64,000 bases of DNA from Chloroflexota bacterium (GTDB lineage: Bacteria; Chloroflexota; Anaerolineae; Aggregatilineales; J027), in NCBI GenBank assembly GCA_024434115.1, contig QMIT01000001.1, positions 248,001-312,000 on the forward strand, written 5' to 3'. Position numbers and translations under genes: made by a program. This document shows, piece by piece, positions 6,425 through 42,796 of this stretch. A model generated the notes under the pieces. The model saw only the letters and a program-made list of their open reading frames with translations. It did no database searches and was not told where the DNA came from. How positions within the stretch are numbered: the stretch's first letter is position 1; the number at the start of each line of letters is the position of its first letter.

Positions 6425-6817
6425 TTAGCGGGAACTGCAATACTCAACGTAGGCGGCGGCGTTCATCAGACCATTCAGTGGGCTGAGGTCTTTCACCCGT
6501 AATTTAATAAACCAGCCCTTACCAAATGGGTCGCTGTTGACCGATTCAGGTTCTTTTTCAAGTTGGCTGTTGACCTCGATGACTTCACCACCGACTGCGG
6601 TATAGACATCGGAAGCGGCCTTAACACTTTCGACTACCCCAACCGAGCCACCCGCGCTGAGGGTTGTGCCAACATCGGGCAATTCAACATAAACAATATC
6701 GGAGAGCTGGTCTTGGGCATAATCACTGATACCAATTGTTACCACATCACCTTCGACGCGGAACCATTCGTCACTTTTGGCGTACTTCAAATCTTCTGGC
6801 GTTTTCCAATTAGCCAT
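6425..6817 (-). CDS. gcvH: Glycine cleavage system H protein
   Basis: Small lipoyl carrier protein that shuttles the aminomethyl group between the P, T and L proteins. The lipoylation site is Lys66 in ESVKAASD. The N-terminal FRVEGDVVTIGISDYAQDQLSD and the later PFGKGWFIKL are standard H-protein blocks. 130 aa, normal length. The ATG at 6817 is preceded by AAAGGAC. It is the first gene of the minus-strand gcv group; the promoter should lie in the 222-bp gap to the divergent gene at 7040. I looked for a glycine riboswitch there and saw none. Confidence 0.96.
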   Translation of the reverse strand: MANWKTPEDLKYAKSDEWFRVEGDVVTIGISDYAQDQLSDIVYVELPDVGTTLSAGGSVGVVESVKAASDVYTAVGGEVIEVNSQLEKEPESVNSDPFGKGWFIKLRVKDLSPLNGLMNAAAYVEYCSSR

Positions 6818-7039
6818 GAGAAGACAAGTCCTTTCAACCGTGAAAAAATAGGATGATTTGTCAATCTTGTAGTAGAAGTATAACGCTAGAGTGGGGGCGT
6901 GGCGAGTTTCAATTCACATGCAATTTTCAGCTAACTTGCATGAACGTCAAAGAATTCATTGAGAAATACCCTATAAGCAATTAGCTTGAAATGAAGTGTA
7001 CTATAGTTTACCGTGAGGTTATTTGAATAGGGCGAACCT

Positions 7040-8020
7040 ATGCAAAACACAAAATCTATTTCGAGATTTGTAGTTCTTTTTGCCATTGGAATATTCGTTT
7101 GTGTTGGGGCTATTCTTCTCCGTGAGATTGGCTTAATTTCAACAAGGAGGTTTGAAGTTGAAGTTTTGGATTTTGAATGGAATTTCGAGGAAATTTTAGA
7201 TTATATAGATGCTGACTATCCAAATGGGGCAGTAGATATTGAATATGATTCCGATCGGTATAATCGCACATTTTTTATCGAGATTAGGTTTAAAGCGCCT
7301 CCTGCTGGAGCCATGAAATTTGCTGAAAGCATTTGCGATGGCGTTTTATACCAAGGATATGATCCTTTTGATACCATTGATGGAATTCGACCTTTTCCGG
7401 ATGCTAAATTAATATTTGGATCAGGGCGTATATACTATTCTTATTCGCCCAATGCGTCACAAGATGTTTTTGGATACCGCTGTGCACTATATTTTGGCTC
7501 GTCAAGATGGGAGCATATTCTTGTTGATACCAGCAATCGGAATTTATATGAGGTGAGGTATGAAATACCTGTTGGTGGATTAAGCCCTCGGTACTCCCCT
7601 CGATTATTTGATGATCCTAATGGGGAGATTGAATATATTAACCCAACTACTAACTTTCCTTTCATGATTATTGGACTGGTATCCATTGATGGAGAATATA
7701 TTTTAGTTGGTGAAACAATATGTTTTGAAACAAGACAGAATTTCGATTATTGGAGTCAAAATGGGCTTCCTGTAGATATTTACCCACCCAGCCTTATTGA
7801 CACGAAAGTAGATATTTCTATTGATGGCACCCTTGTGGTGGATACAACAATTTCGGATCGGTGGACACTGTCACATCCTAATCAGAAAGATGTCGACACT
7901 GATCTCTTATTCAACTCCTGTGTGTTCCGAAGAAACTGGCAGCAAGGATTACATGAAATCACAGTACGTATTCATGCCTCAGAGGTCATGGAGGAGACTT
8001 GGACGTATGTTGTTCAGTGA
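7040..8020 (+). CDS. Unrecognised membrane-anchored extracellular protein
   Basis: 326 aa. An N-terminal hydrophobic helix (about residues 9-29, FVVLFAIGIFVCVGAILL) after a few basic residues suggests a signal anchor, with the rest outside the membrane. The body is acidic and aromatic, rich in D, Y and F, with two cysteine-containing patches (ESICDGVLY, GYRCALYFG) and ends in a beta-rich segment. I recognise no domain or catalytic motif. Codon use is clearly more AT-rich than in the gcv or kor genes, which may point to transfer or relaxed selection. The start is the ATG at 7040, with only a weak ribosome site. A hairpin plus T run follows. Confidence 0.75.
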   Translation: MQNTKSISRFVVLFAIGIFVCVGAILLREIGLISTRRFEVEVLDFEWNFEEILDYIDADYPNGAVDIEYDSDRYNRTFFIEIRFKAPPAGAMKFAESICDGVLYQGYDPFDTIDGIRPFPDAKLIFGSGRIYYSYSPNASQDVFGYRCALYFGSSRWEHILVDTSNRNLYEVRYEIPVGGLSPRYSPRLFDDPNGEIEYINPTTNFPFMIIGLVSIDGEYILVGETICFETRQNFDYWSQNGLPVDIYPPSLIDTKVDISIDGTLVVDTTISDRWTLSHPNQKDVDTDLLFNSCVFRRNWQQGLHEITVRIHASEVMEETWTYVVQ

Positions 8021-8060
8021 AACTCTCTTAGATGGAGAGTATAAATAAGACGTATAAGAA

Positions 8061-8110
8061 CGACACGTTATTCTGTTAGATGCGCCAAAATAACGTGCCG
8101 CATGTTTTTT
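8061..8110 (+). terminator. Probable terminator after the anchored protein gene
   Basis: CACGTTATT (8064-8072) pairs with AATAACGTG (8089-8097), and the outer CG/CG pairs extend the stem. The loop is 16 nt, and a run of six T follows at 8105-8110. The T run starts 7 nt after the inner stem, so termination may be imperfect. Confidence 0.6.
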
Positions 8111-8138
8111 ATGAAGGGGATGGTCAAGTTGCTGTATT

Positions 8139-8543
8139 CTATTCGCTGTCTACATCCAGCCACTTGCGGAGCGTTTGATAAACTTCTGTCGAAGCCACCA
8201 AGTTAAACGTGATATGCCCACTAGCGTCGGCTACAATGGAGGGGCGCATGACAAGCCGGTTATCTTTGGTGAGGCCGAGGGCCATATACGAATTGCCTGT
8301 GCCAACCTGACGGGTGGTGGCAAGTCCCGGAACTGGATAAAGATTTTTGAGACGGCGCACGAGTTCACTATACTGTAACCGCAGTGCCAATTCGAGCGGC
8401 CCAAAGCTGGCAGAAATGCTGACAAACGAGCCTTCACGACTCATGGCTAAAATTGGCTGATCGGGGTTTTCCTGTGCGGTGGTGAGGCGCAGTACATTAT
8501 CGGGTTCCAGAACAGCTTTATCTAAGACTTGGTAATTTCGCAT
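8139..8543 (-). CDS. Hypothetical small protein
   Basis: 134 aa from the ATG at 8543 (MRNYQVLDKAVL), which has GGGAG about 13 nt upstream; a TTG at 8573 would add ten residues. No signal peptide or membrane helix is seen. The sequence alternates charged and hydrophobic residues with short beta-like stretches (LAMSREGSFVSISASF, LVMRPSIVADASG) and looks like a compact cytoplasmic domain. I do not recognise the family. It is convergent with the gene ending at 8020 and divergent from the lipoprotein at 8769. Confidence 0.65.
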   Translation of the reverse strand: MRNYQVLDKAVLEPDNVLRLTTAQENPDQPILAMSREGSFVSISASFGPLELALRLQYSELVRRLKNLYPVPGLATTRQVGTGNSYMALGLTKDNRLVMRPSIVADASGHITFNLVASTEVYQTLRKWLDVDSE

Positions 8544-8768
8544 AGCCCATATACTCCCAACAGGTGGCGACAAATAATAAATCTGTTGTAGTGAAAAAAT
8601 AATGTGTTCATTATATCACTATCGCTTGGTCTAGCCGTTGGCTAAATTGCCGATATTCTTATCACTAGAAGTTTAGTCATGTAATAGCAGGAAAAACGCC
8701 ATAGAAAACAGCCCTATTCAATGGTACAGTTTTCCCTTACCGCCTTAATGGTTTCTGGGAGGATGTGG

Positions 8769-9524
8769 ATGAAGCGTGTTGCCATTTGGAGTAGTTTGCT
8801 GGTGGTCATGGGATTCTTAACGGCTTGTGCAGCATTTGAAGACCCCAGCAAAAAAGCAACACAAAATGCTGAAAGTACGGCGCTTTGGGCAACCGTTGGT
8901 GTGGCGCAAAACCAAAATGAAACGATTGTGGCCCTCATTGCCACTGCCGATAATGCCTCGCTGTTGGCGCAGCAGGCCACACAGGTCAGTGCCGAACGCG
9001 ATCAACTACGTGCGACGGTGAACGCGATTGCCAATAACCCCGTTAGTTCAGGTCTACCGAATGTACCCTTTGGCTCGACTCCACCAGCCCTCGACGGCGG
9101 TGTTCCGGCTGGCCCTCAGCCGACTTCCCAAACCAGCGGCTCAACCAATAATAGCATCGGTACTTATGTTACAGCGACCACTGCCTCAACTTTGACGGCA
9201 GACTTCTGCGCGGCGGATTCGTTAACCACCTTTGCTGCCGATTCGCCTGTCATCTACTTTGTGACGGTGGCCCGCAATGTGCTGGCGAATGTCGAGTTTT
9301 CGGTGCGTGTGTCCTCTAATGGTGAGGTGGTTGATCAAGACACCGCTTTTTGGACAAGTGATGCGGTCTATCCCGAAACGTGCATTTATTACGCCCTCGA
9401 CAACGCCAATATCCCCAATTGGGCCGCCGGGACGTACACCGTCGAGCTATTGGCAAATAATCAATCGGTCTCCCAAGTGACCTTCCAAATTTTGGGTGCG
9501 ACGGATGCTATGGAGGAAGGTTGA
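8769..9524 (+). CDS. Secreted lipoprotein of unknown function
   Basis: 251 aa. The N-terminus MKRVAIWSS is followed by a hydrophobic core and a lipobox ending LTAC, so it should be lipid-anchored on the outer face of the membrane. A helical, Ala/Gln-rich stretch follows (about 25-90), then a Ser/Thr/Pro-rich linker, then a C-terminal domain of about 110 residues with three cysteines (DFCAADS, ETCIYY) and a beta-sandwich look. GGGAGG at 8757-8762 sits 6 nt before the chosen ATG and decides this start over the earlier ATG at 8721. Convergent with the propeller protein at 9546. Confidence 0.8.
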   Translation: MKRVAIWSSLLVVMGFLTACAAFEDPSKKATQNAESTALWATVGVAQNQNETIVALIATADNASLLAQQATQVSAERDQLRATVNAIANNPVSSGLPNVPFGSTPPALDGGVPAGPQPTSQTSGSTNNSIGTYVTATTASTLTADFCAADSLTTFAADSPVIYFVTVARNVLANVEFSVRVSSNGEVVDQDTAFWTSDAVYPETCIYYALDNANIPNWAAGTYTVELLANNQSVSQVTFQILGATDAMEEG

Positions 9525-9545
9525 ACCTACCTCCTTATTTTTGAT

Positions 9546-10553
9546 CTATTTTTGTGTGGCTTGAAAGTTATCACGGAATAAGCCTTCGTGGGCGAAAAGG
9601 TAAATCTGGCTAGTAGTCCCGGTGACGGCTTCCACATATGCCAAATAGGTTTCATGTTCATAGAGCAAACTGAAAAACCATAGGCTGCTTCCAGTTTCCA
9701 CCATTTCCCCTGTAATGACTGGATTATGGGCATATTTTTCCCACTCGATACCGTCATCACTTATGGCAAGCCCAAGATTTGTGCCGCTCCGGTAAAGCAT
9801 GACATAGCCATCTGGGGTTTTTACGACACGGGGTCGCTCGACTCCACCACGAAAATCCCAGTCGCCTTCAATTTCCGCCTGCATCACCGGATTATGGGTA
9901 TATTTGGTCCATGTAATACCATCTTCGCTCATCGCCATGCCGATTCGCATTTTTCGATCTTCAGAGAATCCTGAATAGTACATCCGATAACCTGTCTCAT
10001 TACGCAGAACGATGGGTACGCTTACTTGTGCAGCATCCCATTCCCCTGTCGCACCCGGATATAAGATAGGCTTAGGATCAGGTATCCAAGGGCCACTGGG
10101 AGCCGATGCCGTTGCACGCCCAATCGCGCCACCCCCGATAGGTGCCTGATAGGTATCCCATGTGTAAAAATATAATACCCATGTACCGTCAATCTCGACC
10201 AAAACACTGGAAGCCATGATGAGGACATTTGCATAGTCAATGTCTTTGCTTTCAAGCACAGGATTATCCTCATAGTCCAGCCAAGTGTAGCCGTCTGCAG
10301 AAGTCGTGTAGCCAACCGTTACAGATCCGGGCCAGCTTTTGAAACCGTTGCGAAACATATGGAATTGATCTTCATAAAAGACCATCGCCCCCGGATTGAT
10401 CCATTTCGAATCCCAACCGCCCGAAAGATTGTTTCCAACTGCCGGACTTGGATTTTGCAGGACAAAAGGTGAATTCATTGTAGGCTCATCTTGTGCGTAA
10501 CTTGGCGTGGCAAAGACTAACAGTATCAATACGAGCAGTAAGCGGAACCTCAT
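9546..10553 (-). CDS. Secreted five-bladed beta-propeller glycosidase-like protein
   Basis: 335 aa with a clear signal peptide (MRFRLLLVLILLVFATPSYA, then QDEP). The mature part repeats blade motifs such as ADGYTWLDYEDNPVL, EDGITWTKYTHNPVM and DDGIEWEKYAHNPVI, spaced as in the five-bladed propellers of GH43, GH32 and GH130 enzymes. These enzymes cleave or phosphorolyse glycosidic bonds of plant or microbial polysaccharides; the substrate cannot be read from the sequence, and I cannot assign the catalytic acids with certainty. AAAGGAACG precedes the ATG. It stands alone on the minus strand. Confidence 0.75.
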   Translation of the reverse strand: MRFRLLLVLILLVFATPSYAQDEPTMNSPFVLQNPSPAVGNNLSGGWDSKWINPGAMVFYEDQFHMFRNGFKSWPGSVTVGYTTSADGYTWLDYEDNPVLESKDIDYANVLIMASSVLVEIDGTWVLYFYTWDTYQAPIGGGAIGRATASAPSGPWIPDPKPILYPGATGEWDAAQVSVPIVLRNETGYRMYYSGFSEDRKMRIGMAMSEDGITWTKYTHNPVMQAEIEGDWDFRGGVERPRVVKTPDGYVMLYRSGTNLGLAISDDGIEWEKYAHNPVITGEMVETGSSLWFFSLLYEHETYLAYVEAVTGTTSQIYLFAHEGLFRDNFQATQK

Positions 10554-33709: not shown

Positions 33710-34579
33710 ATGACAGAGCAATTCAGTATTGGCATCCTTGGCGGCTCCGGTTTATATCAAATGGCAGCACTGAAAGATGTGCAGGAAATTGAGATAGACA
33801 CGCCGTTTGGCAAACCGAGCGATCACTTGATCACCGGGACGTTAAGCGGTCAGCGGGTGGTGTTTATCCCCCGGCATGGCCGTGGACATGTGCTGAATCC
33901 GAGCGAAGTGCCGTATCGTGCCAATATCTATGCCCTAAAAATGATGGGTGTTCAATATGTGGTGTCGGTGAGTGCGGTGGGGTCATTGCGGGAAAAATTC
34001 GCGCCGGGGCATGTGGTTATTCCCGATCAATTGGTGGATTTTACGAAAGGCAAACGGGAGACAACGTTTTTTGAAAAAGGCGTAGTGGCGCACGTTGGAG
34101 TTGCTGACCCGACTAGCCCTGAATTGCGCGAACCCTTAGCCCAAGCCGTCATAGATGCAGGTGGCACAGTACATCGCGGTGGCAAACTTATCACCATTGA
34201 AGGGCCACGCTTTAGCACGCGCGGGGAAAGTACCCTCTATCGCCAATGGGGGTTGGATATTATCGGCATGACGGCCTGCCCCGAAGCATTTTTGGCACGT
34301 GAGGCAGAGATGGCCTATGCGATTATGGCACATGTCACCGATTATGATGTGTGGCGCGAGGGCGAAGAAGCAGTTTCGGCGGCGTCCGTATTTGAAACTT
34401 TCCATCACAATTTGGAGATTGCCCAACAAGCATTAGTCAAGTTGATGCCTAAATTGGCGACGATTCAATCGGCGGAAGCGCATCATGCCTTGAAGGGGGC
34501 GCGGGCCACTGCGCCCAATCGGATTCCCGATGACTGGCAACGCTATTTGTCGCCTCTGCTGACGCATCTGTTAGATTAA
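33710..34579 (+). CDS. mtnP: S-methyl-5'-thioadenosine phosphorylase
   Basis: 289 aa. Family blocks: IGILGGSGLY, TPFGKPSDHLITG, PRHGRGH (phosphate-binding), PYRANIYALK, VSAVGSLRE, TIEGPRFSTRGES, GMTACPEAFLAREAEM and the Asp-containing DYDVW. It splits methylthioadenosine into adenine and methylthioribose-1-phosphate, recycling the by-product of polyamine and related pathways. An adenosine/adenine deaminase-family gene lies 2.8 kb away on the other strand and could handle the purine product. The C-terminus is slightly extended. Confidence 0.94.
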   Translation: MTEQFSIGILGGSGLYQMAALKDVQEIEIDTPFGKPSDHLITGTLSGQRVVFIPRHGRGHVLNPSEVPYRANIYALKMMGVQYVVSVSAVGSLREKFAPGHVVIPDQLVDFTKGKRETTFFEKGVVAHVGVADPTSPELREPLAQAVIDAGGTVHRGGKLITIEGPRFSTRGESTLYRQWGLDIIGMTACPEAFLAREAEMAYAIMAHVTDYDVWREGEEAVSAASVFETFHHNLEIAQQALVKLMPKLATIQSAEAHHALKGARATAPNRIPDDWQRYLSPLLTHLLD

Positions 34580-34590
34580 AACTCTCCATT

Positions 34591-34623
34591 TCCCCTCCTG
34601 CCCTTGTTGAGGAGGGGATTTTC
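34591..34623 (+). terminator. GC-rich hairpin terminator after mtnP
   Basis: TCCCCTCCT (34591-34599) pairs perfectly with AGGAGGGGA (34610-34618), with a 10-nt loop followed by TTTTCC. The arms resemble the hairpin at 19370-19394. Confidence 0.65.
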
Positions 34624-34642: not shown

Positions 34643-35929
34643 ATGAAAGTCTATCAGACACGACGAACTCAGAGGCGTGAACGGGCATTGCTGGTCATCG
34701 CAGGGCTGTTTATTCTATTGAATCAAGTTGGTCTTATCCTTGTGCAAAGTCGCAGCGTTACCGCCATTTGGCCTGTGCTGGTGTGGGTGGGGTGCGCGGT
34801 TGGGTTGCATCGGACGGCGAATCGGCAACTGCCGCATCGTGACCCCCTGCTGCTGCCTGCCATTTTGCTGTTGGCCGGGTGGGGACTCAATTTAATCCAC
34901 CGCTTGCTGCCAGCGTTCGCGGATCGTCAGGCCTATTCGATGATGTTCAGTGCGGTAGTGGTAATGGGCCTCATGTATTTACCCAATGACCTGCTGTGGC
35001 TGCGGCGCTATCGCTATACGTGGCTGGTGATGGGCCTCATCTTGTTGGCCGCGACGATTTTGGCGGGGGTCAATCCGGCGTTCGTGGGGGGGCCAAAGTT
35101 GTGGTTGGGGGTGGCTGGGCTATTCTATCAGCCTTCGGAATTGGTCAAACTGCTGCTGACGGTATTCCTTGCCAGCTATCTCACCGACCATTGGGTAACA
35201 TTGCGGTACGACGTGTTTCGGATTGGGCGGGTACAACTGCCATCACTGGGGTTTTTGGCCCCGATGCTGCTCATGTGGGGCGTATGTGTAGTGATTTTGG
35301 TTTGGCAGCGGGATTTGGGGACAGCCACCCTGTTTTTCGTAATCTTTATGCTCATGCTCTATCTTGCCAGTGGACAGTGGATTGTGTTGGCGAGTGCCGC
35401 GATTTTGTTCATTGGGGCGATGGTGGTCGCCTATGAGACCTTCGCGGTGGTAGCGCTGCGGGTTAACATCTGGCTTGACCCATTCGGCGGAAATGCACCG
35501 GACAATGAATCTTTTCAGGTGGTGCAAAGCCTGATTGCAGTGGCGAGTGGGGGTGTGATTGGGGAGGGTATTGGGCAGGGCGTCCCGACCTTCATTCCAG
35601 TGGTACATTCTGACCTTGTGTTTGCTGCACTTGCCGAAGAATGGGGCTTGGTTGGGGTGGTTGGTTTAATTATCAGTATCTTGGTGATTGTATTACGCGG
35701 CCTGCGTGTAGCGATGAAATCCCAACGCCGGCCCTTTGCAGCATTTTTGGCGGCAGGGTTAAGTATTATGATTGGCACACAAAGCCTGTTAATCATCGGG
35801 GGGTCGCTGCGCCTTGTGCCACTGACCGGGGTGACGCTGCCCTTTGTGAGTTATGGCGGGTCGTCGCTGCTGACCTCGTTTGTGGCGGGGGGACTGCTGC
35901 TTATTTTGAGCGAGGAGAGCGAGACATGA
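34643..35929 (+). CDS. rodA: SEDS-family peptidoglycan polymerase (RodA/FtsW-like)
   Basis: 428 aa polytopic protein with about ten membrane helices. SEDS landmarks: WLGVAGLFYQPSELVKL, a QRDLGTATL block, the loop region (NIWLDPFGG... ESFQVVQSLIAVASGG), PVVHSDLVFAALAEEWGLVG and the C-terminal PFVSYGGSSLLTS. The acidic residue corresponding to the catalytic-loop Asp of the HTD motif is kept (Asp324). It polymerises glycan strands from lipid II. The stop codon overlaps the ATG of the PBP-like gene (ATGA), so the two are translationally coupled, as rodA-pbpA usually are. The start at 34643 has no clear ribosome site. Confidence 0.9.
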   Translation: MKVYQTRRTQRRERALLVIAGLFILLNQVGLILVQSRSVTAIWPVLVWVGCAVGLHRTANRQLPHRDPLLLPAILLLAGWGLNLIHRLLPAFADRQAYSMMFSAVVVMGLMYLPNDLLWLRRYRYTWLVMGLILLAATILAGVNPAFVGGPKLWLGVAGLFYQPSELVKLLLTVFLASYLTDHWVTLRYDVFRIGRVQLPSLGFLAPMLLMWGVCVVILVWQRDLGTATLFFVIFMLMLYLASGQWIVLASAAILFIGAMVVAYETFAVVALRVNIWLDPFGGNAPDNESFQVVQSLIAVASGGVIGEGIGQGVPTFIPVVHSDLVFAALAEEWGLVGVVGLIISILVIVLRGLRVAMKSQRRPFAAFLAAGLSIMIGTQSLLIIGGSLRLVPLTGVTLPFVSYGGSSLLTSFVAGGLLLILSEESET

Positions 35930-37392
35930 ATAACACCAGCATGACTCGTGAACTGCGCCAACTGGCCCGGGGTATCCTCGCCGCGTTTGGGGTAGTGCTG
36001 CTGGCGTCGGTGTTTTATGGCGTGGTGCAATCGAAATCACTGACCAATCGTTCAGATAATCCGCGTCGTGTTATTGCGGAGCAGACCCTCCGACGTGGCA
36101 TGATCGTAGATCGCAATGGGGTGGTACTGGCGACGAGTAGCCCTACGACTATTGGGGATCGTCTGCGCCGTATTTACCCCTATCCTGAGATGATCGGTGG
36201 GGTGGGGTATTTTAGTTATACACATGGGACGAGTGGACTGGAAGGGACGTTTGACGATTTACTGCGGGGGGAGTGGCAAGAATTTGGTGTATGGGACGAA
36301 TTGACCCAAGACCTGCTGCATCAACAGCCGGATGGGGGGGATTTGCGAACCACACTCGATTTACGCATTCAGCAGGCCATTACCCATAGTATCGGTAATC
36401 GGAATGGGGCGGCGGTGGTCATTCATGTGCCAGATGGGGCGGTGCTGGCGATGGTCAGCCAATATACGCTTGACCCCAACGTGCTCGACATAAACTGGGA
36501 TGAATTTGCCCAGATTCAGCGCCAACGCCTGATTCATAATCGGGTGACGGAGGGATTGTATCGCCCCGGCAGTATTATGGAATTGGTGATGCTGATTGGG
36601 ATGCTGGCAGATGGGGACTCGCTGGATCGGGTAGTCGAAAATGGTACTCAGCCTGTTTCGGTTGGAGGGACGGGATTCCCAGCAAGTGCTTTCGGCTGTG
36701 TAGATGAACAAGCAGCGGCCTTTACCAATGACCTCCTGCTGAAAGAGGCGCTGGCGTGGGGATGCCCTCAGCCCTTTGTGCAGGCGTTTGGGGAGAGCCT
36801 CACCGCCGAAAGTTATGATGCTCTGCTGCGTCAACTTGGCCTGTTGGATAAGCCAGAGTTATATGACTTCCGCACAGTTGTGGGGCGACTTCCTGTGCTG
36901 CCGGATGAGACATCAGAATGGACTTTGGAGGCATTGGGTCAAGGCCATCTCCGGGTATCCCCGCTGCAATTAGCCCGATTGATGGCGGCGATTGCAAATG
37001 ATGGCAGTGCCCCGCCGCTGTATATCGCCGATGCGTATCGGATGGCAGGTGAACGGGAGTGGCGATCACTTGACCGCCCCTTATTGGAAAAAGCCTTGAT
37101 GCGGGATGAAATCGCCGAGCAACTACGCGATGTGATGCGGTTTGCGGCGGAAAATTCACCGTTGGTGGCACTGGCGAATGACGCCGAGTTGTCGTTACAG
37201 GGGTATGTCTTACATGGACAGGTCGGGGTGACTTATATCAATCAGCAGATGAATAGCTGGTTTCTGGGTTTTATGGATGCGCCAGATGGCTCGTCAGTCG
37301 TGGTGGTTGTCCTGATTGAAAATGCCGAATCCCCCGGTGAAGCGGCGGTGGTGGCGGGGGATGCTTTTCGGGCGACAGTCGTAAATCAGTAG
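35926..37392 (+). CDS. PBP2/FtsI-like protein lacking transpeptidase catalytic residues
   Basis: 488 aa. It has one N-terminal membrane helix (about 17-36), a short dimerisation-type region (RGMIVDRNGVVLATS, GTSGLEGTFDDLLRG) and a transpeptidase fold. The SxxK site reads YRPGSIMELVM, so the lysine is Glu219 after Ser216. The SxN site reads AWGCPQPF (Gly279, Cys280, Pro281), and KTG is GQVG (Gln432, Val433). Secondary landmarks survive (VSPLQLARLMAAIANDG, SWFLGFMDAPDGSSVVVVVLIEN). No frameshift is present, so it is a maintained pseudoenzyme. It overlaps the SEDS gene by 4 nt and probably activates or scaffolds that polymerase. Confidence 0.88.
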   Translation: MNNTSMTRELRQLARGILAAFGVVLLASVFYGVVQSKSLTNRSDNPRRVIAEQTLRRGMIVDRNGVVLATSSPTTIGDRLRRIYPYPEMIGGVGYFSYTHGTSGLEGTFDDLLRGEWQEFGVWDELTQDLLHQQPDGGDLRTTLDLRIQQAITHSIGNRNGAAVVIHVPDGAVLAMVSQYTLDPNVLDINWDEFAQIQRQRLIHNRVTEGLYRPGSIMELVMLIGMLADGDSLDRVVENGTQPVSVGGTGFPASAFGCVDEQAAAFTNDLLLKEALAWGCPQPFVQAFGESLTAESYDALLRQLGLLDKPELYDFRTVVGRLPVLPDETSEWTLEALGQGHLRVSPLQLARLMAAIANDGSAPPLYIADAYRMAGEREWRSLDRPLLEKALMRDEIAEQLRDVMRFAAENSPLVALANDAELSLQGYVLHGQVGVTYINQQMNSWFLGFMDAPDGSSVVVVVLIENAESPGEAAVVAGDAFRATVVNQ

Positions 37393-41423: not shown

Positions 41424-41497
41424 AGCCTATCTAGTGTAACATTCCTGAAAGGACAACGGAAGATAGCCGTCAGTTTCTAATAGAATTCTGTTGTGGT

Positions 41498-41503
41498 TAT
41501 AAT
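41498..41503 (+). promoter_or_regulatory. -10 box giving a probably leaderless fhaA-like mRNA
   Basis: TATAAT ends 7 nt before the ATG at 41511. With the usual 6-8 nt distance from the -10 box, transcription would start at or next to the start codon. No ribosome site is visible, which fits a leaderless message. Confidence 0.5.
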
Positions 41504-41510
41504 CAGGCCC

Positions 41511-42359
41511 ATGAGTAACTCAAATGATCCCCACTCCACACGACCCCGACGCGGGCGTACCTTATCGTTAGAACGTATTGAGGGCCGCCTGCAAACATTG
41601 ATTGAAGACAACCTAACGCGCCTGCTAGATGGTCGGTTGCAGCCGCAAACACTGGCTCGCAAACTGGCCCGTGCTTTAGAAGAAGGCATCCGTAAAGAGG
41701 TGGATGGCCTGTCCGCCCCTGATCTTTACACCGTCGTGCTGAACCCGGATGATATGGAAGATTTGACGGCCCGCTATCATGATGTGGCCTCACGCTTGGC
41801 CGAGCAGTTGGCGACACTCGCGGCTGATTGGCATCTTAGTATGAACCAATCCCCGCGTGTGGTATTGATTAGTGATATTCGACTCGACCCATTTGAGGTG
41901 GATATTAAAGCTGACCGCACGCCGCCAAGTTTTGAGAAAACGCAGCAAATGGAAGCCGCGGTGATCTCTCCAACGCCGACTCCCCAGCGCGAGGCAACGT
42001 TGGTTTTGGCGGGTGGGCGACAAATTCAACTAGATCGGCCTGTGATCAATATTGGACGCCGCACCGATAACCACATTATGGTAGATGATAAGCGGGTCAG
42101 CCGACAGCACTGTCAGATTCGCCTGCGGTTTGGGCGGTTTGTGATCTATGACCTTGAAAGTAAGGGCGGTACACAGGTTAACGGCTTGCAGATCAAAGAA
42201 CATATTTTGCAGGCGGGGGATGTGATTTCGCTGGCGGGGTATCAGATGGTGTATACCGAAGACCGCAGCACCTCGGAAATTGATCTTGGTGTGTTTAGTG
42301 ATACTCAATCATTTGAAACCCCTAATGACGAATCACCGGATGGAGACAGTACCCTTTGA
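41511..42359 (+). CDS. FhaA-like protein (DUF3662 plus FHA domain)
   Basis: 282 aa from the ATG at 41511 (MSNSNDPHSTRP). The N-terminal 120 residues (LSLERIEGRLQTLIEDNLTRLL ... QPQTLARKLARALEEG) match the DUF3662 region of actinobacterial FhaA. A Pro/Thr linker follows, then an FHA domain (about 170-255) with NIGRRTDNHIMVDDKRVSRQHC and GTQVNG, which bind phosphothreonine. In Mycobacterium, FhaA regulates cell-wall synthesis under Ser/Thr kinases. The stop overlaps the TTG start of the fhaB-like gene. The rodA/PBP pair lies 4 kb upstream. Confidence 0.85.
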   Translation: MSNSNDPHSTRPRRGRTLSLERIEGRLQTLIEDNLTRLLDGRLQPQTLARKLARALEEGIRKEVDGLSAPDLYTVVLNPDDMEDLTARYHDVASRLAEQLATLAADWHLSMNQSPRVVLISDIRLDPFEVDIKADRTPPSFEKTQQMEAAVISPTPTPQREATLVLAGGRQIQLDRPVINIGRRTDNHIMVDDKRVSRQHCQIRLRFGRFVIYDLESKGGTQVNGLQIKEHILQAGDVISLAGYQMVYTEDRSTSEIDLGVFSDTQSFETPNDESPDGDSTL

Positions 42360-42796
42360 GTAATGACGTGGTGCTGTTGATCCTCCGATTGGCGGCAAGT
42401 GCAGCACTCTTGGGGTTTGTCGGGGCGATTGGATGGATGTTGTGGCAGGATTTTCAGCAGTCCGCCAAAGTCGCGGTTAAGCAGTCGGCATTTTCACGGG
42501 GGCGGTTGGTGGTGACCGAAAGCGACGTTGAGGGAGTGCAGCCGGGGCAGAGTTGGGTGTTGCAGCCTGTCACCAAATTGGGGCGGGCTAACACCAATAC
42601 TATCGTCATCGCGGAACCCTTTGCCTCGAATGAACATGCGTTGGTGGCATGGCGGGGTGGGCAGTGGTGGTTGGAGGATTTAAAAAGCAGCAATGGCACA
42701 TTGCTAAATGGGGTGCGGATTCAAGAGCCAACGGTGCTTTCAGCGGGGGATGTGATTGGCTTCGGGCGGGTGATGATGCGGTTGGAAATTGAGTGA
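42356..42796 (+). CDS. FhaB-like membrane-anchored FHA protein
   Basis: 146 aa. An N-terminal membrane helix (about 5-29, VLLILRLAASAALLGFVGAIGWML) is followed by a cytoplasmic FHA domain with KLGRANTNTIVI, FASNEHALVAW, SSNGTLLNGVRI and LSAGDVIGFG. The layout (one helix plus FHA) matches FhaB/FipA. The TTG start overlaps the fhaA-like stop (TTGA), so translation is coupled. FhaB-type proteins bind phosphorylated partners in the division or elongation machinery; no Ser/Thr kinase gene is in the window. It is convergent with the retropepsin gene, 4 nt apart. Confidence 0.83.
   Translation: MSNDVVLLILRLAASAALLGFVGAIGWMLWQDFQQSAKVAVKQSAFSRGRLVVTESDVEGVQPGQSWVLQPVTKLGRANTNTIVIAEPFASNEHALVAWRGGQWWLEDLKSSNGTLLNGVRIQEPTVLSAGDVIGFGRVMMRLEIE

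Follow-up and report, generated by a model that had tools for sequence, protein, structure and literature searches.

The SEDS-PBP locus

The window, i.e., the whole 64,000-nucleotide stretch of Chloroflexota DNA analyzed here, encodes a SEDS glycan polymerase followed directly by a PbpA-type class B penicillin-binding protein (PBP), whose three catalytic motifs are all missing (Table 1). The SEDS gene likely starts at the ATG at 34643, with a TTG at 34604 also being in frame, and its residues are numbered here from 34604. It ends at 35929, and the PBP gene starts at 35926 in a 4-nt ATGA overlap.

Table 1. Features of the SEDS-PBP locus and its neighborhood (positions within the window)
Feature	Position	Strand	Basis or remark
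Phosphorylase-superfamily gene (methylthioadenosine phosphorylase type)	33710..34579	+	PF01048
SEDS glycan polymerase gene	34643..35929	+	PF01098, 235 bits
Codon of SEDS catalytic Asp D337 (in VVHSD)	35612..35614	+	Present in all 70 dead-type and all 36 intact-type loci
PbpA-type class B PBP, catalytically dead (pseudo-transpeptidase)	35926..37392	+	488 aa, no internal stop
N-terminal transmembrane helix, aa 4-34	35935..36027	+	Helix 4-34 in structure model
Pedestal/dimerization region, aa 34-157	36025..36396	+	PF21922; best-conserved part in dead family
Degenerate transpeptidase domain, aa 158-488	36397..37389	+	PF00905; PbpA fold, Z 42.2
Former SxxK, now S216-I-M-E219	36571..36582	+	Alignment
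Former SxN, now G279-C280-P281	36760..36768	+	Cys and Pro invariant in the order's dead family
Former KTG, now Q432-V433-G434	37219..37227	+	GH in most relatives
FhaA-type gene (FhaA_N + FHA)	41493..42359	+	PF12401, PF00498
FhaB-type FHA gene	42356..42796	+	PF00498, gene order

The SEDS protein combines membership of the SEDS fold family with the catalytic aspartate and its surrounding residues, as expected of a SEDS glycosyltransferase. Like D337, residues W167, Q176, E179, D237 and E345 are invariant across 70 dead-type loci (those in which the PBP lacks its motifs), and K182 is found in 94% of them. The spacing of W167, Q176, E179 and K182 equals that of Trp102, Gln111, Glu114 and Lys117 in E. 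coli RodA, of which Asp262 is, by motif, the equivalent of D337 (PMC10449877). Hence, the original prediction of a SEDS gene that keeps its key motifs and overlaps its neighbor by 4 nt is borne out on both counts, the aspartate being present in 70/70 dead-type loci.

The PBP displays the class B PbpA-type architecture, namely a transmembrane helix, a PbpA-type pedestal and a transpeptidase fold. Pfam detects the PbpA dimerization domain (PF21922, PBP_dimer_2) at aa 57-139 and the transpeptidase domain (PF00905) at aa 161-471, with 74.2 bits against a cut-off of 22.1. The closest solved structures by sequence are those of Eggerthella lenta (4mnr) and M. tuberculosis PbpA; the predicted structure (pLDDT 91.4, pTM 0.89) matches the latter (3lo7) with a Z of 42.2 and an rmsd of 2.5 over 395 residues. 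The protein keeps a complete PbpA-type fold, in line with the transpeptidase landmarks noted earlier.

Loss and replacement of the catalytic motifs

The catalytic positions were placed by alignment to M. tuberculosis PbpA and the intact relatives, and this alignment recovers all three substitutions read originally from the single sequence: S-I-M-E for SxxK, G-C-P for SxN and Q-V-G for KTG. The catalytic SxxK, SxN and KTG that define an active class B PBP are absent from the window's protein and from every readable relative in the order. The first position of the former SxxK is most often G (28 of 48, followed by S in 10, T in 5 and A in 4), such that the window's serine is not typical; position 219 in the order's dead family is Q or E in 44/48 and K in none. 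Recurrent replacements are seen across the order, with YQPGGALQ in place of SxxK, CPxPF in place of SxN and GHxxxAY in place of KTG. As no Ser-Lys pair is left, covalent penicillin binding by this PBP is expected to be absent.

These replacements raise the question of whether the former active site was rewired to a different chemistry, for instance via Cys280 or the histidine recurring at position 432. The invariance of C258, C280 and P281 (48/48 and 67/67 rows) and the presence of His432 in 35/48 sequences would fit such a scenario. However, a search across the transpeptidase domain of the order's dead family for a new invariant Ser or Lys found none, the window itself has Q432, the same cysteine occurs in the SCN motif of active PbpA and the shrunken relatives described below lack the cysteine region. 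A switch of chemistry is therefore judged very improbable. In a crude regular-expression test for disulfide covariation, C258 and C280 were both present in 14 of the intact relatives, both missing in 23 and mixed in 22.

Distribution of dead and intact orthologs

Relatives were searched within Chloroflexota at the order, class and phylum levels, and orthologs were recovered in most of the 60 related genomes searched. All three motifs are missing in 50/50 scorable orthologs of the same order, counting that of the window. Motif states are practically all-or-none: 77 loci have none (62 full-length dead and 15 shrunken dead versions), 58 have all three and a single one has only the KTG. A locus cut by a contig end (L104), which was initially scored as shrunken, is excluded from these counts, although it is still a row in the SEDS tree. 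The intact orthologs, 36 of the 58 being linked to a SEDS gene, occur only in other families, f13 being a single, doubtful exception; some of those without a SEDS neighbor are probably paralogs. Given this all-or-none pattern and the retention of SxxK and KTG in the other PBPs of the same genome, the motif loss seen in these alignments is far beyond chance.

When named public genomes were scanned with an alignment of the partner SEDS protein, a comparable picture emerged, with 80 loci mostly from metagenome-assembled genomes titled Anaerolineae, Aggregatilineales or Chloroflexi. Among these, 74 have a PBP, and the 72 that are readable in length are dead without exception (72/72). Among the named genomes, 'Chloroflexi bacterium isolate CFX10' is the nearest relative, its SEDS protein being 96% identical. 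Our literature search found no description of a naturally dead SEDS-partner PBP or of dead PBPs in Chloroflexota, which is weak evidence of absence.

Selection and the shift of constraint

Comparison of the window with three congeners at a dS of 0.44-0.52 gives a dN/dS of 0.09-0.10 for the PBP gene; a more distant congener gives 0.12 at a dS of 1.5. The SEDS gene shows 0.05-0.06 in the same genus comparison. Purifying selection acts on both the transpeptidase domain and the pedestal. Loss of the catalytic residues with retention of the fold and of purifying selection is the hallmark of a pseudoenzyme; with a dN/dS of 0.09-0.12 within the genus and open frames in nearly all loci, the gene does not behave as a pseudogene. 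The substitutions are conserved and the gene is under purifying selection, and the combination of an intact SxxK in close relatives with neutral evolution of this copy, which the original prediction had named as the contrary outcome, was not encountered, the close relatives all being of the dead type. The initial observation was right but understated, in that the dead PBP is not a one-off decaying gene.

The distribution of constraint along the protein differs between the two types. Mean pairwise identity among the intact relatives is 41.3% in the transpeptidase domain and 37.6% in the pedestal, as against 37.7% and 45.7%, respectively, in the order's dead family. When pairs are matched at 35-45% pedestal identity, that of the transpeptidase domain falls from 40.9% in intact to 33.5% in dead versions, and the active-site rims drop likewise, with 55.3% as against 39.8%. 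Judged by sequence conservation, constraint is gone from the active site and remains on the membrane-proximal pedestal.

A functionless, decaying relic could be argued from the erosion or shrinkage of the transpeptidase domain in some families and from the broken gene of Chloroflexi bacterium OLB13 (L226, about 8168-9634), where the dead PBP lies in two frames owing to a frameshift or a sequencing error. However, a dN/dS of about 0.1, open frames across many families and retention of the PBP even where it is unlinked from the SEDS gene make decay a highly unlikely account, and a neutral relic is rejected by the purifying selection together with this retention.

Gene fusion, domain shrinkage and unlinking

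In addition to the overlap in the window, the two genes are neighbors in most loci, and in several families they form one open frame (f11, f16, f32, f50, f58, most of f39 and one of two f7 members; e.g., L227:6992-9643 and L253:6986-9616). The structure model of the L227 fusion (pLDDT 89.7, pTM 0.66) has confident domains, with their mutual placement only modestly so. Other one-frame loci are L111, L074-L077, L089, L090, L096-L103, L127, L135 and L152-L155. An intact PBP is found in a one-frame locus in a single case (L133), the fusions otherwise being of dead or shrunken types. The long frames at L016, L022, L026, L033, L038 and L088 were rejected as fusions and represent overlapping frames.

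Three families (f11, f22 and f32) have shrunken versions, which retain the N-terminal 210-230 profile positions and have lost the transpeptidase segment of about 100 residues that connects the SxxK helix with the later strands, including the SxN. SEDS and PBP are unlinked in four genomes; the lone SEDS genes might be taken for cases of PBP loss, but this proved wrong, as a full-length dead PBP is encoded elsewhere in each genome.

These variants also bear on the notion that the dead transpeptidase domain serves as a non-catalytic ligand sensor, whose ligand would be a stem peptide, lipid II or some other factor and which would gate the SEDS protein, perhaps in conjunction with phospho-signaling by the FHA proteins of the ancestral gene cluster. 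The full-length fold with new recurrent motifs at the former active site in most families, and the FhaA/FhaB genes within the same cluster, would be consistent with such a role. Against it, the region is deleted altogether in f11, f22 and f32, and conservation near the former active site is strongly reduced, as seen in the rims at matched pedestal identity. A sensor function is accordingly considered unlikely.

Gene neighborhood and evolutionary history

The gene order FhaA-FhaB-(MTAP)-SEDS-PBP is common to the dead and intact types, which can hence be regarded as orthologs. The phosphorylase gene lies upstream of the SEDS gene in most relatives with enough flank, and there, it and the FhaA/FhaB-type genes are part of a conserved cluster that includes SEDS-PBP. 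The FhaA-type gene adjoins SEDS-PBP in many of them and is displaced in the window; in its genus, opposite-strand genes for adenosine deaminase, CpXC and histidine kinase proteins lie between the FHA genes and the SEDS-PBP cluster.

In Actinobacteria the corresponding region has the order fhaA-fhaB-pstP-rodA-pbpA-pknA-pknB. The Chloroflexota locus resembles this RodA-PbpA system in its short PbpA-type PBP with the PF21922 domain and PbpA fold (Z 42), in the SEDS gene directly upstream and in the presence of FhaA/FhaB in the cluster. It differs in the phosphorylase gene between the FHA and SEDS genes and in the loss of all three motifs, M. tuberculosis PbpA having kept SxxK, SCN and KTG.

The SEDS trees group the dead type in a single well-supported clade that leaves out f22, L106 and L127; for L127 (f58) the PBP tree provides no resolution. 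Three changes of state are needed on the careful tree, a number also lying in the 5-95% range of the bootstrap trees. We read this pattern as one old loss in the Anaerolineae, probably followed by one or two later losses. L106 (G065:C189, minus strand) has an in-frame, low-complexity ELGELE-like repeat in place of about 100 residues from the SxxK helix to the SxN and keeps its KTG, while its sister or congener L114 is intact. It may represent a recent loss or a misassembly, and was left out as firm proof of independent loss.

Other wall enzymes of the genome

Besides the SEDS gene of the window, its genome contains two more, of which the first lies in a dcw-type cluster (L257, FtsW) and the second beside minC/minD-type genes (L256, RodA), along with an FtsI gene (L258) adjoining mraY/murD-type genes; names of wall genes beyond the Pfam hits are our reading of the sequences. 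The RodA-type gene (L256, G000:C18, about 6457-9620) immediately follows the minC/minD-type genes. The other PBPs comprise FtsI, two more class B and four class A proteins, all of which have SxxK and KTG (7/7), and there are seven YkuD proteins. The intact PBPs and YkuD proteins indicate that cross-linking capacity is present. The suggestion that the lineage has a reduced or unusual peptidoglycan finds no support in a genome with FtsW, RodA, FtsI, other PBPs and YkuD proteins, and a reduced peptidoglycan is rejected on the strength of these genes.

A related idea is that the SEDS protein and the dead PBP make a non-standard polymer or an uncross-linked glycan, for which no transpeptidase is needed. 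It would account for a third SEDS gene besides the FtsW and RodA types with a partner unable to cross-link; however, all residues known for lipid II polymerization are kept (PMC10449877), and the transpeptidase is normal in the intact orthologs that share this gene order. The making of another polymer is thus quite improbable.

Functional implications

The PBP is, in our assessment, probably a conserved pseudo-transpeptidase retained as an activator or scaffold of a third SEDS polymerase, with cross-linking left to other enzymes. Under this proposal, loss of the active site from a PbpA-type class B PBP would be an ancient event in the Anaerolineae lineage; the transmembrane helix and pedestal of the PBP would bind and switch on the neighboring SEDS protein, or hold it in place; the latter would polymerize lipid II; and the peptide cross-links would come from intact class A or class B PBPs or from L,D-transpeptidases. 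The physical complex, the activation and the identity of the cross-linker are inferred. The core of the original prediction, the coupling of a dead PBP, probably as an activator, to a SEDS polymerase that is still live, is well supported by conservation, selection, synteny, fusions and pedestal constraint, and only its extension to a reduced peptidoglycan falls away. An activator would be further favored by the intact fold, the invariant SEDS catalytic residues, the retention of the PBP in genomes where it is no longer next to the SEDS gene and the shrunken versions, which keep the N-terminal part without the SxxK-SxN segment. Counting against it are the unlinking of the two genes in four genomes, the modest confidence with which the L227 fusion model places its two domains and the full-length transpeptidase domain of most families, which exceeds the needs of a pure pedestal activator.

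There are precedents for the individual elements of this proposal. As in the RodA-PBP2 systems of E. coli and T. thermophilus, a SEDS polymerase is paired with a class B PBP, and the PBP2 pedestal, reported as an allosteric hub for RodA, has been proposed to activate it through ECL4 (PMC8078798). Unlike in those systems, the natural PBP here is predicted to be unable to catalyze and hence to lack the cross-linking function that the PBP partner supplies in a SEDS-class B PBP synthase; additionally, the pedestal is of another type and the SEDS protein is a third one besides FtsW and RodA. Further, B. subtilis PBP2B and S. aureus PBP1, both FtsI homologs, are reported to be still needed when dead, while another PBP cross-links, and with C. 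difficile SpoVD they exemplify proteins that are required while their catalysis is dispensable (PMC8078798, PMC12713402). These are laboratory mutants of proteins that keep the motif in nature; here, by contrast, an entire clade has the dead state as its long-standing wild type. The Chloroflexota PBPs, dead yet conserved, with constraint on the pedestal and in some cases a fusion to SEDS, would fit this picture as natural partners that only activate. Also weighing against the activator reading, RodA active without its cross-linker is toxic in E. coli (PMC6207328); therefore, a further cross-linking enzyme must be coupled to the Chloroflexota polymerase. A bolder version, which is tentative and on balance doubtful, envisages a class-wide dedicated SEDS complex with an obligate pseudoenzyme partner, in which polymerization is split from D,D-cross-linking and the partner is, in some families, cut down to a minimal activator within a fusion; the strands would then either fall to L,D-transpeptidases or stay uncross-linked for a special role in the wall.

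SEDS polymerases are thought to require a class B PBP as an allosteric activator, and activation is hard to disentangle from cross-linking in the known SEDS-PBP pairs, where a single protein does both. The Chloroflexota proteins suggest that evolution has split the two across a whole clade. With versions that grade from intact via dead, fused and shrunken to unlinked ones, the minimal activating part of the PBP could be read from sequence and tested in vitro. A further implication of the split is a polymerase system with a PBP partner of its own that beta-lactams should be unable to acylate.
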